Source: Thermotoga sp. Ku-13t
Lineage (GTDB): Bacteria; Thermotogota; Thermotogae; Thermotogales; DSM-5069
DNA length: 64,000 bases
Direction of reading: 5' to 3'
Assembly (NCBI RefSeq): GCF_011057685.1
Contig: NZ_LNFY01000001.1
Coordinates: 558,001 to 622,000 of the forward strand
Shown: positions 21,077 to 49,130 of the stretch, piece after piece
Layout of the letters: each line of letters starts with the position of its first letter
Position numbering within the stretch: position 1 is the stretch's first letter
The notes under the pieces: model-generated
Told to the model about the DNA's origin: nothing
The model's input: the letters and a program-made list of their open reading frames with translations, nothing else
Databases searched by the model: none
Program-made: the position numbers and the translations under genes

Positions 21077-23251
21077 TCAAAAAGCTGCTCCAAATCTAAA
21101 GAACGGCTTGAAGTTCTCCCAGGTCCATTGACCGTTGAAATCGTAGGCGACGCCGAACCCCATCACGCCGAGCATCGGAACCGCGATGTCCAGTTCCGGT
21201 CCAGCTGTGAGCCTCAGCGTGGGTTGAGCGAGCGTTTCACCCGTTCCTCCAGCATCCACGAACGCCAGCATGTACATGGGCAAGGTCTGAGATTTCAGAT
21301 CGTACCTCAACTCTCCAGAAGCCAGAATGCCTGCTTTGGCCTTGGTACCATCAACGCCACGTACAGAGTCGATTCCGTAGAAGAGGATCGTTTCCTCGGT
21401 CGAACCCGGATTGGTGTACTTATCCAGGAGAACTGCACTCGTGAAGAATCTGAATGCGGCGACGAGCTGTTCGTTCCAGACGGGCATGAACATGCGCACA
21501 TCGAGCCGGAACTTCCAGTAATCTCTGTCTGCCAGGTCGAACAGACCGGCTTTGTCCAGACCGAAGTAGAGGTACCGACCCTGCGTTGGGAAGATCGGAT
21601 CACTCCTGGTGTCGTAAGAATAGTTGCCCGAAAGGATGAGCGTGTTCTCCGAGAAATCGGTGTAGGTTCTGTTCTCGTAAGTCACGCCTCCACCGAACGC
21701 ATGTCCGGCGAACCTGAGCGTGGAAGCGTTGCCTCCAACTTTGAAAATTTGCGTGGAATTCGTCCATTCGTAGCTGAAGAGTGCACCAAGCGTTGCCGGC
21801 AATTTGAACGGTTTTCTGATGGAGTAATCGAACTGTATCAACCTGCTCTCAAAACCGAGCTTCAGGGTGGTCGCGAACGTCTGACCATAACCGAAGGGGT
21901 TGATCGTCGAGAAAAACAGTTCACCTAAGAACCCTTCGTACCAAGGCCTGTCTTTCACGGGGCTCCAGGAAATTCCACCACTGAGGCTGAACTTCTTGTC
22001 TTTCTCTTTGACCTCGACCACGACGTTCACGTCGCGGTTTTCGGGCTTACCCACAGGATAAACCTTCACGGCTTCGAAGAACTGCGTCCTGTTCAATGCT
22101 GAGACAGTATCGTAGAAGTCTTTCTGACTGAGCGGTTGACCGGGTTTGAAGGTGACGAGGTCATCGATGACATACGTCTTGGTCCCCTCAAAACCTTTGA
22201 ACTCGACGTTCACTACGTACTTCTCGATGATTCTGAACTGCAAGGTTTTGTCCTGCTCCTGGACCACAACGTGACACAGAGGATATCCTTTCTCTTTGTA
22301 AAGATCTATTATCGCCTGCATCGATCTCAGAACGTCCGAGTTTCTCACCAGCCTGTACTCTCCAACGGACACCACCTTGCGCAATTGCTCAGAGCTTATC
22401 AGCTCGTTCCCGGAAAATTCGATCTTTTCGTACACCTTACCTTCGTCCGGTACGTACCTGGGCTGGACCACCTTCACCTTCATGGCCACAGCTTTCTCAG
22501 GAACGTTCGGAATTTCGATCTTCTCGAAGTCTATGGAAGTTTCCGGGCCAAAGTAGATGTAGTTCGCGAGCGTGAACAGCACAGAAGAGATGTCGTTCAC
22601 CGTCGGATAACAGCGCTTTATGTCCTTGATCAGTATTCTCAACAACGAGGGCGTTGTGTAGTAATCCTTAAGCGTGTCGATCTTTATCTGTTTTCTCACC
22701 TGAGCGATGTCCAGCCCTTCGGTCTCACCGACGAAATACACGTCCCAGAGAGCGTACGGAACGATGCTGAAAAAGTACGTGTTGTCTTTGAAATCGCCGC
22801 TTATTTCAACGAGGAAATAACCAGCCTCGTCAAACTTCTGTTTGATCGCGTTGAGGCTTTCTCTCACCTTTGACATGTTGAGGGCTTTACCTTTTTCGAG
22901 CGTAACGACACTGGCAAGGTCTGTCAACTTCACCAGCTCCGGACCTTCCAGGTTCAGCTTCCAGTCTCTGACGATGGGATTCTCCTGGACAACGAACTGG
23001 AGGACGAAGCGCCCCTCCGATGCGACCAGTTTCGGTTCCAGGGATGAGAAATAACCCACATCGAAGATCTTCTTTGCGATCTCCGCAATGGCTTCGTCTT
23101 TCAACTCCACCTCAAGGTAGTCCTTCACAAGAGGCATCAGCTCTTTCTCCGATACCGTCACCAAGCCGACGAACTTCACGTCCGATATGACGATTGCGTA
23201 GATTGTCAATCCGAGGATCAACGAAAGTAGCGAAACGAGGACCCTCTTCAT
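21077..23251 (-). CDS. bamA: Outer membrane protein assembly factor BamA/Omp85
   Basis: 724 residues. A signal peptide (RVLVSLLSLILGLTIYA) precedes several POTRA domains, each with a VKFVGL-like or IEFSGNELISSEQLRK-like start, to about residue 430. The C-terminal 16-strand barrel includes LSGGISWSPVKDRPWYEGF, YSYDTRSDPIFPTQGRYL and the lid-type VRGVDG. The last residue is Phe (FFRFGAAF), the outer-membrane beta-signal. It inserts proteins into the toga outer membrane. It overlaps the downstream HATPase stop-start by one base. Confidence 0.93.
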   Translation of the reverse strand: MKRVLVSLLSLILGLTIYAIVISDVKFVGLVTVSEKELMPLVKDYLEVELKDEAIAEIAKKIFDVGYFSSLEPKLVASEGRFVLQFVVQENPIVRDWKLNLEGPELVKLTDLASVVTLEKGKALNMSKVRESLNAIKQKFDEAGYFLVEISGDFKDNTYFFSIVPYALWDVYFVGETEGLDIAQVRKQIKIDTLKDYYTTPSLLRILIKDIKRCYPTVNDISSVLFTLANYIYFGPETSIDFEKIEIPNVPEKAVAMKVKVVQPRYVPDEGKVYEKIEFSGNELISSEQLRKVVSVGEYRLVRNSDVLRSMQAIIDLYKEKGYPLCHVVVQEQDKTLQFRIIEKYVVNVEFKGFEGTKTYVIDDLVTFKPGQPLSQKDFYDTVSALNRTQFFEAVKVYPVGKPENRDVNVVVEVKEKDKKFSLSGGISWSPVKDRPWYEGFLGELFFSTINPFGYGQTFATTLKLGFESRLIQFDYSIRKPFKLPATLGALFSYEWTNSTQIFKVGGNASTLRFAGHAFGGGVTYENRTYTDFSENTLILSGNYSYDTRSDPIFPTQGRYLYFGLDKAGLFDLADRDYWKFRLDVRMFMPVWNEQLVAAFRFFTSAVLLDKYTNPGSTEETILFYGIDSVRGVDGTKAKAGILASGELRYDLKSQTLPMYMLAFVDAGGTGETLAQPTLRLTAGPELDIAVPMLGVMGFGVAYDFNGQWTWENFKPFFRFGAAF

Positions 23252-23808
23252 TATGATACCTCCTTCTCAAACAAGTCCTTCTCGAGTTCCTCGAGGACCT
23301 CGTAAAGGGACTTGATCACCACCGGCGAAGAAAGATCGCCGAGAACTTCCATCAATTGGGTTGTCGTCAGCGCGTAGCAATCGTCTTTGTAGCATCTTTC
23401 TACGCACAATTCTACACCTTCAGGAGTCCCTGTCAGCAAGGTCACCAGACAGCCCACCACGTCGCCGATTTCCTGGCAGTCGATGTGGTCCGTGTTGAAG
23501 CACGCTGTCACTCTCGTTCCTTTTCCCTTCTCGCTCTCCAGCTTCACGTATCCCCCCGTGGCCTCCGCCGCCTGTTTCAAAAATGGAAGTCCAAGGCCAA
23601 CCCTGCGAACCTTTGGATCACGCGTGGTGTAGAAGGGATCGAACACCCTTAAAATTTCTTCCTGTGTCATCCCCACCCCATCGTCTTCGACGGTGAAACA
23701 GAATCTGCTGTCGTTCTGGACGATCCTCAGCCTGATCTTTTTGGCTTGTGCCTTGAAGGAGTTCTGAACGATGTCCATCACATGGTCTACGATGGTTCTC
23801 AATCCCAT
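23251..23808 (-). CDS. Histidine-kinase-like ATPase without phosphoacceptor domain
   Basis: 185 residues. The ATP-binding fold has the N box VDHVMDIVQNSFKA, G1 VEDDGVGM, F box FDPFYTT and G2 VGLGLPFLKQ. It begins directly with the N box, so there is no dimerisation/His domain. The C-terminal third is cysteine-bearing (DCQEIGDVVGC, LCVERCYKDDC), a possible redox or metal site. It follows the PHP gene with overlapping stop and start and belongs to the five-gene module described in the findings. Known relatives sit by [FeFe]-hydrogenase genes; a kinase or anti-sigma role is inference. Confidence 0.8.
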   Translation of the reverse strand: MGLRTIVDHVMDIVQNSFKAQAKKIRLRIVQNDSRFCFTVEDDGVGMTQEEILRVFDPFYTTRDPKVRRVGLGLPFLKQAAEATGGYVKLESEKGKGTRVTACFNTDHIDCQEIGDVVGCLVTLLTGTPEGVELCVERCYKDDCYALTTTQLMEVLGDLSSPVVIKSLYEVLEELEKDLFEKEVS

Positions 23809-24512
23809 ATCGTCAGCACCCTGCTTTCGTCAGGGTCGCGTAAGAAATTGAAGAACTGTTCTGCATTTTTCACATCGAGATCGAAGCGCGTGAACCTGCA
23901 ACCGATCTCGTCGATCCTGTGCGCATCCGAACTGGTCAGCGGGATGTAACCCGCTCTCAGCACTTTCTGCCAGCCGTCCTTCGTCCTGACCTCCGCGAAC
24001 CTTACCCCATCGTTCGGTGGAAACATTCCAAGCTGGTAAAGCAAACCGAACTGTCTGTCCACATGCGCGTACGCGGGTACACCACCGAAATCGAGGATCA
24101 GCTGTACGATCTCTCCGACACTGAGATCAGCAGCGACCAGAAGATACTCTTCCTTGATCGAGAGGAATTCGTCTCTCTCGTTCACTAAAAGCTGATAACC
24201 CAGCACTTCAGGATCCAGATGCACCTTTGGAAGATAAGCGTTCAGAACTTCACAGAACTTTCTGGCCTTCCCAACGCTGGAAAAATACGCCAGTACGTGG
24301 ACTTCCTCTCTCGACGTCACTTCGACACCTGGCAAGAAGATCGTACCACACGTTTTCTCGAAAGCCTCCAGATTTTCACAGCTGTTGTGGTCACATATGG
24401 ACAGAACGTCGATCTTCTCCTGCTTCGCTTTTGAACAAACTGCACCGGGGACCATCGTTATGTCCGCACACGGTGAAAGACACGAGTGAACGTGTAAATC
24501 AGCCCTGATCAC
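23799..24512 (-). CDS. PHP-domain metal-dependent phosphoesterase
   Basis: 237 residues. Metal-binding motifs of PHP proteins are present: RADLHVHSCLSPCAD at the start, ICDHNSCEN, VEVTSREEVHVLAYF, YAHVDRQFG and TSSDAHRIDEIG. Such enzymes hydrolyse phosphate esters or nucleotides using a trinuclear centre. It overlaps the DRTGG gene by 4 bp and the ATPase gene by 10 bp, so the module is made as a unit. It may remove a signal molecule or phosphate made by the partners; that is inference. Confidence 0.85.
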   Translation of the reverse strand: MIRADLHVHSCLSPCADITMVPGAVCSKAKQEKIDVLSICDHNSCENLEAFEKTCGTIFLPGVEVTSREEVHVLAYFSSVGKARKFCEVLNAYLPKVHLDPEVLGYQLLVNERDEFLSIKEEYLLVAADLSVGEIVQLILDFGGVPAYAHVDRQFGLLYQLGMFPPNDGVRFAEVRTKDGWQKVLRAGYIPLTSSDAHRIDEIGCRFTRFDLDVKNAEQFFNFLRDPDESRVLTIWD

Positions 24513-24841
24513 GGTTCTATGCCCATCCCATACAACTTTCCAGCGATCTCAAAAGGGCTCTTCTCTGTTCTCAAAAGGCACAGGCCCTCCACCTTCGCCT
24601 TTTCAACGGTCTCGTTCGAGAAGTTGTGGCCGTTACAGAGCACGATGGCGCGGATTCCCGTTATGACAGAGACCGCCACAATGTTCACGTGAGATTGCAC
24701 CGTCACCCATATTGAATCGGGCTTGGCGTGCGCCATCACCTCGCTCAAAAGGTCCCCAACACACCCATGCTTCACTTCGACGTCACAGTTTCCACAGCAG
24801 ACCTCAAGGCCCAGCGCTTCGACGATGCTCGACACCCTCAT
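24509..24841 (-). CDS. Small DRTGG-domain protein (first copy)
   Basis: 110 residues, a single DRTGG-like ligand-binding domain. Typical features are the N-terminal VSSIVEALGLEVCCG, a central AHAKPDSIWVTVQSHVNIVAV, and the end FEIAGKLYGMGIEP. It has five cysteines. The equivalent C-terminal pattern in the second copy is [14 protein letters not shown], so the two are paralogues within one operon. DRTGG domains occur with CBS domains and are thought to bind nucleotides; function here is unknown. Confidence 0.75.
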   Translation of the reverse strand: MRVSSIVEALGLEVCCGNCDVEVKHGCVGDLLSEVMAHAKPDSIWVTVQSHVNIVAVSVITGIRAIVLCNGHNFSNETVEKAKVEGLCLLRTEKSPFEIAGKLYGMGIEP

Positions 24842-25785
24842 TTGTTCCCCTCCCTGTCCCTGCGGAACTCCATCTCGACCACCACCCCCGCACCGACTTT
24901 GGAAACAACCATCAGGTTGTCAGAACAACGTTTCATGTTCGTGAAACCCATGCCAGCGCCAAAGCCGAGCTCTCGAACGTAATCCGGTGCGGTAGAATAA
25001 CCCTCCTTCATCGCCAGTTCGACGTTGTCGATGCCCTTCCCAGTGTCTTCCACGCGTACGAAGATCCGATCGGGCTTAACGAAACAGTATATAACCCCGG
25101 TGCTTCCACTGTGTATCACTACGTTGGTTTCGGCTTCGTAAGTGGCGATGGCCACCCTCCTGGCGGTCTCCGGATCGACCCCCTTGGAGAGGAGGAACTG
25201 TCTCAGTTTGGAAGCCCCTATGCCGGCGAGATTGATGTCGTAATAATCTATCGGGAAGAAGAAATCGGCTCCGGATTTGTCCAGGCTTTCTCCAGTGATC
25301 AAAGACCGTTCGAAGTAATCGGGACTTTCAAGCACTTCTTTCCGCCGCTCGTCATGCAGATACACCAAGCCGAGCCTTGCGAGCAGCGCCATCATCACAT
25401 CGTTCTTGGTCACTATCCCCACCAGTCTGTTGTTCTCATCCACGACCGGAAAACGACCATAAGAATAACGCTCAAATGTTTCTATGATGTCCTTCAGCGT
25501 GTCGGTGACCTTCAGACACACGACTTTCTTCGTCATGTGATCCTGAACCTTCTCGTCTATGTAGCCTCCTTCGAGTGCCTTGATGATGTCTTCGATGCTC
25601 ACGATGCCAACGACCTTCCTCTCCGAATCCACCACGGGAACACCGGAGATGCGCTTTATTCTCAATATTTCCTTGACCTGTCTGAGCGTTCTGTCCGGAT
25701 GCACGGAGATGACGTTGGGGTTCATCACTTCAACCACAGGCATGTCGAGGAAAAAACTCTGAACACGATCGAGGACCTTTTCCAT
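24838..25785 (-). CDS. CBS-domain pair fused to anti-sigma-type HATPase
   Basis: 315 residues. Two CBS units span about residues 14-140 (MNPNVISVHPDRTLRQV, then MTKKVVCLKVTDTL). An RsbW/SpoIIAB-like ATPase follows: N box ATYEAETNVVIHS, G1 VEDTGKGID, G2 LGFGAGMGFTNMKRC. CBS pairs sense adenine nucleotides, so this could couple energy state to a Ser/Thr kinase or anti-sigma activity. No sigma factor or antagonist is in the window. It overlaps the DRTGG gene by 4 bp. Confidence 0.85.
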   Translation of the reverse strand: MEKVLDRVQSFFLDMPVVEVMNPNVISVHPDRTLRQVKEILRIKRISGVPVVDSERKVVGIVSIEDIIKALEGGYIDEKVQDHMTKKVVCLKVTDTLKDIIETFERYSYGRFPVVDENNRLVGIVTKNDVMMALLARLGLVYLHDERRKEVLESPDYFERSLITGESLDKSGADFFFPIDYYDINLAGIGASKLRQFLLSKGVDPETARRVAIATYEAETNVVIHSGSTGVIYCFVKPDRIFVRVEDTGKGIDNVELAMKEGYSTAPDYVRELGFGAGMGFTNMKRCSDNLMVVSKVGAGVVVEMEFRRDREGNK

Positions 25786-25788
25786 CTT

Positions 25789-26151
25789 TCACACTTCCCA
25801 GATGGGTTTGATACCTTTGGCGTAGAGCCTGCCACACGCTTCGAACATGGACATCCTGGTCACAGCCAGCACGATCCCGCTGGACTCAGCCATCTCGATG
25901 GTCTCGGCAGGGATAGTTTCCCTCCTGACGATCACCACCGCGGGTATACCTACCACTTCGGCGGTTCTGATGACCTGGGGCGTGCACAGACCGGTGATCA
26001 AAATCGCGTCCGGCTTCGCTATTGCGAGGACTTCACTCATCAAATCCGAGGCGGCTGCGCGTTCGAACTGCAGTTGATCAGCCTTTTGAGCGTTGGCCAC
26101 AACCTTTGCCCTGAGCTCAGACAGAATCTCCGTCAGTTTCATTGAAATCAC
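25789..26151 (-). CDS. Small DRTGG-domain protein (second copy)
   Basis: 120 residues, paralogue of the 24509 gene. Seen are [37 protein letters not shown], and [18 protein letters not shown]. It is first of the five-gene module and overlaps the thyX stop by 4 bp, so the module may be transcribed from the zinc-transporter/pterin operon upstream. Confidence 0.75.
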
Positions 26152-26777
26152 CCCTTCAACAGATCGCCCCTGTAAGAATGCTTGACGAACGCCTCATAAC
26201 TCTTCGGACAGATCGCTTTGAAGATCTGCGCGACGGCGAGCGCGTACTGCTGCATCTCCCACTGCGCGTGCGAATCGGCACGAAGCGAGAGAAAATTCAT
26301 CAAACTCCTGGCGTTGACCGTCCAGATGAACTGGGTGTACAGCGCCGTCGGCAGTACCATGCGCGCGATTTCTTTACGCACACCAGAGTCGACCAGCTCC
26401 TGGTAAGTTTTGTAGGAGAATTCGTAAACCTCCTTCATCTTCTCTATGAACCTCTCATCGAGCCTCTCCTTGCTCGGGATGTAAAACTCGTCTTCGTACT
26501 CGGTGTAACGGCCGCTGAGTTCGTTGTAGGAAGCGATCCTGTGCCTCATCCACTGCCTGGCAACGAAGATGGGACACTTGACGTGGAACGTGAAGGTGAC
26601 GTGCTCAAAGGGGGTCTCGTGGTGATTCTTCATCAAGAATTCGATCAGGCGCCTGTCCTGTTCTTCATCGCCCGGCTGTGAAGCGTGGCAGATCCTAGCG
26701 GCCCTGACCACCGATGTATCGTCCCCCATGTGATCGATCAGCTCGACGAAACCCTTGTCGAGAACCTTGATGCGCAT
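26148..26777 (-). CDS. thyX: Flavin-dependent thymidylate synthase ThyX
   Basis: 209 residues from the ATG at 26777, with GGAGG seven bases upstream; a preceding ATG at 26780 overlaps the folE2 stop. Makes dTMP using FAD, NADPH and methylene-tetrahydrofolate. The signature is [16 protein letters not shown], and the start [18 protein letters not shown] resembles the T. maritima protein. It lies after folE2, which supplies the folate pathway. Confidence 0.96.
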
Positions 26778-26779
26778 CA

Positions 26780-27556
26780 TTATTCCTCCTTGTACTTCGT
26801 CACGCACGCATAGGCGTTGTGCGCGTGGATGGATTCGAAACTCTCAACCTCGACTTTGTACCAATAGATCCTCTCGTCGGCGTTCAGTTTCAGGGCGATC
26901 TCCCTGGCCACGTCCTCCACGAACCTTGGATTGTCGTAAGCCTTCTCTGTGATGAATTTCTCGTCCGGCCTCTTGAGTATAGTATAAATCGGGGCACTCG
27001 CCGCCTGTTCTGCGTACTCTATGAGTTCTTCAAACCAGACCAGTTTCTTCGATCTTATGTGGATCCAGACAATCGCCCTCTGGTTGTGCGCGCCTCGCTC
27101 GCTTATCTCCTTCGAGCATGGACACAGCGTGAGCACAGGCACACCAACGCTGACGATGAAGTCGTACTTTTCGTGCGTCTTCTGACCCTCGATCCTGCAC
27201 GTGTAGCTGAGGAAACTCTTCTGGTTTGAAACGGGAGCCTTCTTCAACATGAAATAAGGGAACTCTATCTCAACCCTGGCGGTGGAAGCCTTCAGTTTGC
27301 CCCTCAACTCCTCGAGCATCTGTCTGATCAGTTTTGGGTCGATCCCGAGCCTGTATCTGTTCAGAACCTCGACAAACCTGCTCATGTGCGTGCCACGGAA
27401 ATGCTCGGGAAGATCGACGTACATGTTTATTCTGGCGACAGTGTCCTGATAACCGTTAGTTCTGTCCATTACCGTGATGGGATAGGAAAGATTTCTTATG
27501 CCGACTCTCTGCAGATAAACGTTCCTATCATCCCTCTGACTCTGCACGTCCTTCAT
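26780..27556 (-). CDS. folE2: GTP cyclohydrolase FolE2 (type IB)
   Basis: 258 residues. Converts GTP to dihydroneopterin triphosphate, the first step to folate and to queuosine precursors. Family marks are [35 protein letters not shown] with the metal Cys, and [12 protein letters not shown]. Unlike FolE1 it can use metals other than zinc. It overlaps queD by 29 bp and abuts thyX, and the zinc-type ABC transporter is in the same operon. Confidence 0.94.
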
Positions 27557-46542: not shown

Positions 46543-47919
46543 TCACAGGGCGTAACCTAGTCCCGTCATTTTCTTCAGGTCTAAATGTTTCAAGATCTGT
46601 TCGATGTTCATGCCGTGTTCCGAGGCGAGGATCTCGAGTGTTTTCACCACGTCCCAGCCTGCTTGTTTCACGGCTCTGGAGACATCCTCGTATCCGAAGA
46701 GCTTTATCAGAGGCGTGAGATTTGAAACTGACTTGAGCAAGTTCTCTTCGCACCGTTTCTGGTTGGCTTCTATCTTCACAACGTACTTTGCAAGGGCACT
46801 ACATGCGTTGCTCAGCAAAGTAAAGGATTTCAGTGTCGTGTGCACGATCAAAGGAGCAAACTGGTTGAGTTCGAGATTCCCCAGGGCGCACGCGTGGTTC
46901 AGAATCGCATCGTGACCGAAGACGATATGACACAACTGCATCACGTACTCTGGCACTACAGGGTTCACCTTGCCTGGCATGATGGAACTGCCCGCTTGAA
47001 CTGCGGGAAGGATGATTTCACCGATCGCCGTGTTCGGCCCGCTGCCGAGTAATCTGATGTCGTTAGAGATCTTGTAGAGGTTCACCGCCAGGGACTTCAG
47101 CAAGCCGTGCACCTCGGCAAAGACGTCCCAGTTCTGTGTGGCATCGATGAGATTCTCCGCTTTCGCTATCTTGACCTGTGTTACTTCGCGCACCTTCTCG
47201 ACGATCTTCAACACGAAGTCTTTTGGTGCGCCGATCCCTGTTCCTATAGCCGTGCCACCTATGTTGACACTTCTGATCCTTTCTTCGACCTTGTGCAGAC
47301 GCCATCTGTCACGGGCGAGCGCGTCTGCGAACGCTCCGAACTCTTGACCCAGCATGATGGGAGGCCCATCCATGAGCTCGGTCCTGCCTGGCTTTCTGAC
47401 CGCGTAGAACTCTTTCTCTTTCTGCTGAATCTTCTCCTGTAGCTCTATCACTGCTTCGATCAGTTTCCTGAGCTTGACGATCACAGCTATCTTCGCACTC
47501 GTTGGGAATGTGTCGTTCGTGGACTGATGCAGATTCACATGGTTCACAGGGTCGACCAGATAATCTCCTTTTCTGCCTCCGAGTAGCTCGCTCGCTCTGT
47601 TCGCTATGACTTCGTTGATGTTCATGTTCAGCGATGTTCCAGCCCCACCACACAGTGGATCCACCACGATGTGTTCTTTCAGCCATTGCCATTCGTTGCA
47701 GGCTTGAACGATAGCGTGTCCGATCCTCTCGTCCAGATAACCAAGTTCCACGTTCAAAAGCGCACACGCCTTTTTCACCATGAAGTAAGCCCAGACAAAA
47801 GTTTCATCGAGTTTTTCATTCGTGGATGGAAAGTTGAGCAACGCGCGCTTGGTGTGCGCACCATAGTAGGCATCATCCTCCACTTCTATCTGTCCGAGGT
47901 AGTCTTTTTCGAGTCTCAC
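46543..47919 (-). CDS. aspA: Aspartate ammonia-lyase/fumarase family protein
   Basis: 458 residues. The family signature [12 protein letters not shown] carries the catalytic Ser. Others are [19 protein letters not shown] and [18 protein letters not shown]. The aspartase assignment rather than class II fumarase is supported by the overall reading and by adjacency to hydF: in Thermotogales and Firmicutes an aspA-like gene often sits among hydrogenase maturation genes. Overlaps hydF by 4 bp. Confidence 0.88.
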
Positions 47920-49130
47920 ACGATCACTTCCCTCAGGAACGGGCGGATGGCCCGTTCAAGTACCCCATGCAAATACGATATTGTCACGCCATAGTTGGTC
48001 ATAGGAATACCGAGCCTTTTTGCCATTCTGACTCTCCTCATCATCGCGGCGCGGTTCAGCACGCACCCACCGCAATGGATGATGAGTTTGGCTCCCTCTA
48101 TTTCCTCCAGCTCGGGGAAATCCTTGCCCGCCACGATTTTGAAGTTGAGCTGTGCTCCCGTGTGATTGACGAGCCAGCGGGGTATCTTCACCCTGCCTAT
48201 GTCTTCCGTCAAGGGTCTGTGCGTGCAGCCCTCCATGATCAGGACAGTATCGCCATCGGAGAGCTGTTCGATCTTTTTAACGCTCTCCACAAAGTACTGA
48301 AGGTCTCCCCTGTAGCGAGATTCCACTATTGAAAAGGTCGTGAGCTCGACATCTTCCGGAACGTCTGAAATAACTTTCATCACGACCTGAGAATCCGTGA
48401 TCACAAGTTTTGGCTTCATACCTATGTTCTCCAAGGTGTATCTGAGCTCCCTCTCTTTCACCACCAGGGCTATGGCCTCCCTGTCGAGAACTTCTCTTAT
48501 CGCGTGCACCTGTGGCATGATCAACCTGCCCTTGGGTGCCCCTAGGTCTATGGGCACGACCAGCACGACCAAGTCTCCACCTTCAATCAGGTCACCGAGA
48601 TAGGGTATTTCGTCATCGCTAGGGATGATCTCGGAGAGAATTTTTCCGATATTCTCAAACCCTTCTTTCCTGATTGACGAAACTGCGACCGTTTTCACCC
48701 CATACCGCTCCTGATAAAACTTCATCAGCTGGGTCGCTTTGTCTTTCAAAAGATCCGTCTTGTTCACCACCACGATGAACGGTATATCCATCTCCCTGAA
48801 CAGATCAGCCACGTCGTCCTCGTAAGGCGTTGGAAAGTCATCACTGATCAGGATACCGCAGTCGGCCCTGTAGAACACCCTTCGGGCTCTCTCGACGCGC
48901 AGTCTGCCAAGCTCACCAACGTCGTCCAGTCCTGGAGTGTCGACGAGTGTGATTGGCCCCAACGGGTGAAGTTCCATCGACCTGTAGACAGGGTCGGTCG
49001 TCGTACCTGCATGCTCACTCACGATGGACACATCCTGTCCCACGAGAGCATTCATGAAAGAAGATTTTCCAACGTTCCTTCTGCCAGCGATGACCACGTA
49101 CCTTCTGAAACCTGAGTCTGGTAACATCAT
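47916..49130 (-). CDS. hydF: [FeFe]-hydrogenase H-cluster maturation GTPase HydF
   Basis: 404 residues. GTPase motifs are [14 protein letters not shown], the [10 protein letters not shown] switch, DTPGLDDVG and NKTDLL. The C-terminal cluster ligands lie in [11 protein letters not shown] and HCGGCVLNR (Cys-x-His and His-Cys-x2-Cys). It is the scaffold that carries the 2Fe precursor to HydA. HydE and HydG are not in the window. Preceded by a structured leader with an intrinsic terminator, so expression may be attenuated. Confidence 0.95.

Follow-up and report, generated by a model that had tools for sequence, protein, structure and literature searches.

The 64,000-nucleotide window from Thermotoga sp. 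Ku-13t, a member of the Thermotogota, contains five consecutive genes on the minus strand at 23251-26151. In transcription order they encode a small DRTGG-type protein (DRTGG-b), a SpoIIAB-like GHKL ATPase carrying two CBS domains (CBS-GHKL), a second DRTGG-type protein (DRTGG-a), a PHP-family phosphoesterase (PHP) and a stand-alone GHKL ATPase (HATP). On balance, the five genes appear to form a signalling module functionally tied to H2, NAD(H) and ferredoxin metabolism based on [FeFe] hydrogenases. Since their counterparts in Bacillota lie inside an operon that also encodes an NADH-linked hydrogenase and a HydS-type putative sensory hydrogenase, they probably constitute an ATP-using switch that tunes hydrogen metabolism. 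The association with hydrogenase is seen in gene content, conservation across the two phyla, co-inheritance, linkage, fusion pairs and conserved catalytic motifs.

Linkage is strong in Bacillota. A PHP profile built from Thermotogota matches 157 of the 398 Bacillota genomes screened, nearly all with strong scores. The hydrogenase domain PF02906, a count that includes HydS because HydS carries the domain itself, is present in 156 of the 157 PHP-positive genomes and in 165 of the 241 PHP-negative genomes (Fisher 6e-18, a value that ignores kinship). Sixty loci, picked via PHP matches spread over the ranking and not at random, were read. All five module families are recognized in the Bacillota operon by the Thermotogota profiles, and the module genes flank hydC-[2Fe-2S]-hydB-hydA and the gene of a putative sensory [FeFe] hydrogenase of the HydS type, or are interspersed among them. 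Most often the order is DRTGG-b, GHKL, HydS-like, DRTGG-a, PHP, HydC, HATP, [2Fe-2S], HydB, HydA. Within about 9.5 kb, PHP is found in 59 of the 60 loci, DRTGG-a, DRTGG-b and GHKL in 56 each and HATP in 54, together with HydS in 56, HydB in 50, HydC in 49 and HydA in 47; HydB shares the strand of PHP in 46. By a rough estimate, a hydrogenase locus would fall by chance inside 19.5 kb of a 2-4 Mb genome in a few per cent of cases. The original prediction, made from the DNA sequence without database searches, had placed similar sets beside [FeFe]-hydrogenase genes in Clostridia and had set co-occurrence with HydA beforehand as the test that might overturn it; these loci bear out the former strongly, and the HydA counts leave the prediction standing.

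The HydS-like proteins of Bacillota are about 445 residues long, with Fer4, Fe_hyd_lg_C and FeS domains. The cysteines matching the H-cluster ligands are kept in 54 of 54 of these proteins and the second Cys of the TSCCP motif is lost, which is the pattern expected for putative sensory enzymes. In 11 loci (L113, L122, L124-L128, L130, L131, L136 and L149), Rex adjoins a fused DRTGG-b-GHKL gene at the head of the hydrogenase operon, overlapping it by 4 nucleotides in ten and abutting it in one. A few Bacillota modules abut rnfCDGEAB without hydABC, at L123 (RnfC identified by Pfam) and at L111, L120 and L129 (by gene order).

In Thermotogota, the module is inherited as a set. When presence is defined by full-length CBS-GHKL, PHP and HATP, all three are present in 80 of 103 genomes, all are absent from 19, and the four mixed cases are genomes that are 60-87% complete. 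The genome-neighbourhood survey proposed with the original prediction gave linkage in one phylum and all-or-none co-inheritance in the other. The all-or-none pattern persists in the families where the set is split: in f2, f7 and f11, DRTGG-a-PHP-HATP lies at one site and CBS-GHKL at another (with DRTGG-b in f7 and f11), and in f3 HATP stands alone. Where the set is unsplit, the typical setting has thyX upstream and a bamA-like gene downstream. Among the genus-level Thermotogota loci read, f8 is the only family with the module beside hydrogenase genes; there it runs straight into hydC-[2Fe-2S]-hydB with no hydA in the run, and locus L052 also has an adjacent HydA1. The expectation that such sets lie next to hydrogenase genes in Thermotogae therefore mostly fails. 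An attempt with the single CBS-GHKL protein as query of named genomes reached four loci only. All 41 HydS-positive Thermotogota are module-positive, a tally made without five hits that were weak and partial (E 1e-31 to 1e-53); it does not depend on them, since all five are in module-positive genomes.

Three kinds of gene fusion occur in Bacillota: DRTGG-b with GHKL in 11 loci, PHP with HATP in two (L156 and L161) and HydS with DRTGG-a in two (L155 and L157). Based on these fusions and on the split patterns in Thermotogota, the module consists of two sub-modules, one of DRTGG-b and CBS-GHKL and the other of DRTGG-a, PHP and HATP. The fusions suggest that HydS may join the PHP/HATP sub-module via DRTGG-a.

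HATP (23251-23808, minus strand, 185 residues) matches HATPase_c (PF02518, 4.8e-20). Its N-box (D12..N16) and G1 box (D42-x-G-x-G) are conserved across both phyla, and a C-terminal alpha/beta extension has conserved D110 and G115. The predicted structure, with a predicted local distance difference test (pLDDT) score of 82.7, has the GHKL fold and matches MutL, HK853, WalK and BCKD kinase. The chain starts directly with the N-box helix and so lacks a His-acceptor domain; neither the Pfam scan nor the structure model reveals a DHp domain or a phospho-acceptor His in its 185 residues, as had been predicted. The cysteine pairs that were also noted in this protein are not conserved: C111, the best of them, is kept in 32% of 77 family members and the other Cys residues of the window protein in 3-12%. 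Redox sensing by cysteine pairs in HATP was rejected on these grounds.

CBS-GHKL (24838-25785, minus strand, 315 residues) has two CBS domains at about residues 19-135 (25381..25731; 5e-33) that retain S/T-x-x-D motifs of the ribose-binding type, S63..D66 and T126..D129. Its ATPase part matches HATPase_c (1.5e-8) and, above the Pfam cut-off, the SpoIIAB/RsbW-like HATPase_c_2 (PF13581, 1e-7; residues 194-305, 24871..25206). Residues E217, E219, N221 and D247 and the GFGAGMG motif are conserved, and E217, N221, D247, G249, G251 and I252 are each kept in at least 93% of 90 sequences from both phyla. The protein is thus a GHKL ATPase of the HATPase_c_2 type with the catalytic E-x-x-x-N and D-x-G-x-G(I) patterns of SpoIIAB/RsbW. 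The NCBIfam model for SpoIIAB, TIGR01925, gives 57.6 bits (1.2e-15), below its curated cut-off of 135 bits. The suggestion that the CBS unit reads adenylates is compatible with the retained motifs, but such sensing was rejected as a core feature of the module, CBS domains being present in only six of the 60 Bacillota loci and missing from the other 54.

PHP (23799-24512, minus strand, 237 residues) matches PHP_C above the cut-off (5e-6) and the PHP domain just below it (1.4e-4, with a score of 22.7 against a cut-off of 26.4). The full metal-ligand set of His, Asp and Glu is present, the candidate ligands H7, H9, H42, E64, H72, H150, D196 and H198 being kept in at least 93% of 84 sequences from both phyla. 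The protein is weakly similar to 3',5'-nucleoside bisphosphate phosphatase (9.3e-7) and to other PHP enzymes that act on nucleic acids or nucleotides. In DRTGG-b (25789-26151, minus strand, 120 residues), D36 (26044-26046) and S39 (26035-26037), which form a D-x-x-S motif, and C106 are conserved in both phyla. DRTGG-a (24509-24841, minus strand, 110 residues) has a DLLS motif, D30-S33 (S33 at 24743-24745), likewise conserved in both phyla, and a conserved W-x-T-x-Q-x-H-x-N motif. The DRTGG (PF07085) matches of the two window proteins are below the Pfam cut-off (E 1.7e-4 and 0.018), and Bacillota relatives pass it: DRTGG-b scores 39.6 bits within one fusion, and DRTGG-a scores 25.7 bits within a different one. 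Since the profile of DRTGG-a gives 51-65 bits with the DRTGG-b domain in the fused proteins, the two proteins are paralogous, in agreement with the original prediction. The predicted structure of DRTGG-b, which is poor (pLDDT 60), has no significant match in the PDB, and PDB profile searches with both families give weak matches only (E about 0.2-0.5), to CBS-pyrophosphatase, family II pyrophosphatase and HPr kinase.

In this genome, the hydrogenase genes are elsewhere. As had been predicted, the surroundings of the cluster yielded no hydrogenase subunit, and hydF, at 47916-49130 on the minus strand and encoding the HydF dimerisation and tetramerisation domains, is 21.8 kb away (predicted as 22 kb). 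Three PF02906 proteins are found genome-wide, all on other contigs, two on C9 and one on C10. A single run on C9 encodes a 75-residue [2Fe-2S] protein, a 527-residue HydS-type protein, HydC, HydB, HydA and Rex. This HydS has two 4Fe-4S domains, an H domain, an FeS domain and a weak PAS match, and is group C-like; with TTACP in place of TSCCP, it has lost the proton-relay Cys and kept the H-cluster cysteines. HydA1 on C10 is stand-alone. A second set, HydC-[2Fe-2S]-HydB-HydC-HydB without HydA, lies on C1, the contig of the module, about 165 kb from it (C1 about 411985-416790); the stand-alone HydA1 may be the missing subunit of this HydB2 set. The small [2Fe-2S] protein that the original prediction regarded as missing is found beside HydS on C9 and also within the HydB2 cluster on C1. 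The module on C1 is therefore physically unlinked from hydS-hydABC on C9 and from HydA1 on C10.

The PHP tree sets Thermotogota and Bacillota apart with strong support and recovers the Thermotogota families, which marks the module as old and as passed on vertically within Thermotogota. All 45 Bacillota HydB proteins compared score higher with the HydB2 of this genome than with the T. maritima-type HydB1, and so does the module-adjacent HydB of f8. In the HydB tree the branch of the genome's own HydB1 is very long, and only the bit-score comparison and the grouping with HydB2 were used. By sequence similarity, the hydrogenase that accompanies the module elsewhere resembles the HydB2 set on C1 and the stand-alone HydA1 on C10, not the T. 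maritima-type HydABC on C9. Because the Bacillota and f8 HydB are closer to HydB2, the ancestral partner of the module may have been of the HydB2/HydA1 type, and with such an ancestor the unlinked state in this genome is probably derived.

Several known systems share features with the module. The putative operon Halsa_1862-1871 of Halanaerobium hydrogeniformans, listed in 2014, comprises in the accessible part of that paper a hydrogenase, an NADH dehydrogenase, a ferredoxin-like protein, a histidine kinase, NuoE, a PHP protein, an iron-sulfur hydrogenase, an anti-sigma/serine-threonine kinase and two open reading frames (PMC4237134). It is a linked form of the module, given there as a gene list with DRTGG unrecognised and no function proposed; the present cluster differs in having CBS domains and in lying apart from the hydrogenase genes. 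For the TamHydS locus of Thermoanaerobacter mathranii (Group D / M2e), a sensory role was proposed for HydS (Land et al. 2020, PMC8163306; PMC13104023). The available text of the two papers treats HydS itself and names, of its neighbours, only a kinase-like ATPase and an AraC regulator, without mention of PHP, of either DRTGG protein or of the other GHKL protein. The present module differs in being unlinked from a HydS that is group C-like with a weak PAS match. The HydS on C9 shares its domain set ([4Fe-4S]x2, H domain, FeS, PAS-like) with TmHydS and, as in the T. maritima hydrogenase operon, sits with a small [2Fe-2S] gene and HydABC (PMC10055695); here the module is on another contig, and for T. 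maritima it is unmentioned in the portion of that source at hand.

The ATPase domain of CBS-GHKL is nearest to SpoIIAB (PDB 1th8), with E-x-x-x-N kept. However, SpoIIAB/RsbW systems pair the kinase with SpoIIAA/RsbV (STAS) and a PP2C phosphatase, and the five-gene cluster encodes no STAS protein, no sigma factor and no PP2C; DRTGG and PHP fill the STAS and PP2C positions by analogy only. In the CBS-pyrophosphatases (for example PDB 3l2b/3l31), adenine nucleotides control a phosphoesterase through DRTGG and CBS domains, whereas here DRTGG and CBS occur in different proteins, neither DRTGG protein has a pyrophosphatase domain and the similarity to 3l2b is weak (E about 0.2-0.5). The PHP-domain protein Tsac_1856 of a paper on Rex could not be assigned to the PHP family of the module. 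No functional description of the module was found in the open-access literature on DRTGG or PHP with hydrogenase, and one may exist elsewhere; the open-access passages do not describe DRTGG, PHP and the two GHKL proteins as one system.

Every chemical step of the proposed switch, its direction of signalling and its output are inferred, and may be as follows. The HydS-type putative sensory hydrogenase on C9 would report the H2 or redox state, with DRTGG-a, its fusion partner in some Bacillota, as the likely point of contact. The SpoIIAB-like GHKL protein, with the fused or neighbouring DRTGG-b, would form the core. As a Ser/Thr kinase that uses ATP, it would phosphorylate one or both DRTGG proteins and also sequester them, and the phosphorylation site would probably be the Ser that is invariant in the D-x-(L/M)-S motif. 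In this lineage, the two CBS domains could feed in the adenylate (energy) state. PHP, with its partner GHKL ATPase, would reset the switch by removing the phosphate or by hydrolysing a nucleotide ligand. The output would be the activity, assembly or expression of an NAD/ferredoxin-linked HydABC-type enzyme, and in some lineages may also involve Rex or Rnf. That the DRTGG proteins are Ser phospho-acceptors of the GHKL kinases, like the STAS proteins of SpoIIAB/RsbW switches, that PHP is a protein phosphatase and that HydS feeds in the H2 state to set the NAD/ferredoxin-linked hydrogenase is proposed tentatively, as a possibility well short of an even chance. The same doubt attaches to the rest of this proposal, by which the relay would be of a kind not described before, retained by both phyla and still functional in Thermotogota though its genes are scattered. 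As for the redox- and energy-sensing switch of the original prediction, the link to hydrogen metabolism is supported by the association with hydrogenase and HydS; its cysteine-pair component is not.

Several observations weigh against such a switch. Most Thermotogota have the module beside thyX and the bamA-like gene rather than a hydrogenase, and 41 of 82 module-positive genomes are without HydS. Conversely, 16 of the 19 module-negative Thermotogota (13 of 16 when only genomes at least 90% complete are counted) keep an [FeFe] hydrogenase, so the module is not needed for hydrogenase function. Six Bacillota genomes (G129, G201, G243, G260, G308 and G330) have the module PHP together with only weak, HydS-grade PF02906 matches, and the PF02906 search found no catalytic [FeFe] hydrogenase in them. 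In the two loci read from such genomes (L137 in G308 and L138 in G260), a HydS-like protein or other module genes persist, and the HydS-like protein of L138 keeps the H-cluster cysteines. The persistence of the module without a catalytic [FeFe] hydrogenase, or without HydS, is the strongest point against a pure regulator of HydABC. In addition, no module member has a DNA-binding domain, and the invariant Ser of the DRTGG proteins is no proof of phosphorylation. As to the route by which HydS would signal, the C-terminal cluster of TamHydS is not reduced by H2; the 2026 study, in its accessible sections, argues against this cluster as the signal carrier (PMC13104023).

The GHKL ATPases might instead be ATP-driven chaperones of the Hsp90/MutL kind that assemble or repair the NAD/ferredoxin-linked hydrogenase, with PHP and DRTGG as accessory proteins. 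The position of the Bacillota HATP gene within the structural operon, between hydC and the small [2Fe-2S] gene, fits such a role, as do the match of the HATP model to MutL as well as to kinases and the 41 Thermotogota that keep the module without HydS. This explanation is nevertheless unlikely, since HydS accompanies the module in nearly all the Bacillota loci (56 of 60), PHP is predicted to be catalytic, the CBS or Rex partners suggest sensing, the 16 hydrogenase-containing Thermotogota without the module mostly have HydB, and the six Bacillota genomes above have the PHP gene with no catalytic enzyme to assemble. A nucleotide-messenger circuit, in which PHP would hydrolyse a pAp- or ApnA-like messenger, CBS and DRTGG would bind nucleotides and the GHKL proteins would be ATP sensors rather than kinases, is suggested by the weak similarity of PHP to the bisphosphate phosphatase, the joint occurrence of DRTGG and CBS in CBS-pyrophosphatases and the S/T-x-x-D motifs of both CBS units. 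It accords poorly with the absence of CBS from most Bacillota loci, which means that CBS is not core, and with the fusion of DRTGG-b to a GHKL domain that retains the SpoIIAB-type E-x-x-x-N catalytic pattern, and is quite unlikely.

The main client could also be the general NADH/ferredoxin balance (Rnf, the Rex regulon or a HydBC-type diaphorase), linkage to HydABC being one outcome. The modules abutting rnfCDGEAB, the hydC-[2Fe-2S]-hydB run of f8 without hydA and the 11 loci with Rex against the GHKL gene point in this direction. However, HydA is linked in 47 of the 60 Bacillota loci, and Rnf does not follow the module, as RnfC is present in 97 of the 103 Thermotogota, among them most of the genomes that lack the module. 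An automatic count of RnfC by protein length, which picked up HydS-sized proteins as well, was not used. Rnf was rejected as the main client on the basis of this near-universal distribution, and only a small chance is given to the general-balance explanation as a whole. A chance cluster of unrelated housekeeping genes, as the tight same-strand run with ThyX, FolE2 and the BamA-like gene might suggest, is scarcely credible and is refuted by the same five families in both phyla, the all-or-none co-inheritance when they are split and the three kinds of fusion.

Putative sensory [FeFe] hydrogenases have long been the subject of spectroscopic work, with no established partner for passing on their signal in the available portions of the TamHydS papers (PMC8163306, PMC13104023). 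The fusions and the co-inheritance name candidate partners, DRTGG-a for HydS, DRTGG-b for the SpoIIAB-like GHKL protein and PHP for HATP, and thus make HydS signalling testable with a handful of small proteins. Such signalling also bears on how the yields of H2 and ethanol are controlled in hosts of the Thermoanaerobacterium type.

The five genes are closely packed, and the run of overlapping or abutting genes has exactly the coordinates originally predicted. A 3-nucleotide gap separates DRTGG-b from CBS-GHKL, DRTGG-a overlaps CBS-GHKL by 4 nucleotides and PHP overlaps DRTGG-a by 4, and HATP overlaps PHP by 10. Upstream, thyX (flavin-dependent thymidylate synthase, 26148-26807, minus strand) overlaps DRTGG-b by 4 nucleotides; downstream, a BamA-like gene overlaps HATP by 1. 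With ThyX, FolE2 and PTPS upstream and the BamA-like gene downstream, the five genes are held in a longer same-strand run, and a promoter and terminator scan of the cluster gave nothing above chance. The closest named relatives found for the host genome are Pseudothermotoga assemblies. The adjacency of thyX to DRTGG-b/CBS-GHKL occurs in several Thermotogota families (f1, f7, f9, f10 and f11; loci L037-L070) and not in the Bacillota loci. Elsewhere in the window, a Lyase_1-family gene of the fumarase/aspartase type (46543-47919, minus strand) overlaps hydF by 4 nucleotides, and this pairing may be functional. In module-negative genomes of family f10, HydB has only 485 residues (L168 8376-9833 and L175 9075-10532) and is without the N-terminal [2Fe-2S] thioredoxin-like part; a module-positive f10 genome (L167) has a HydB of 596 residues that includes this part.

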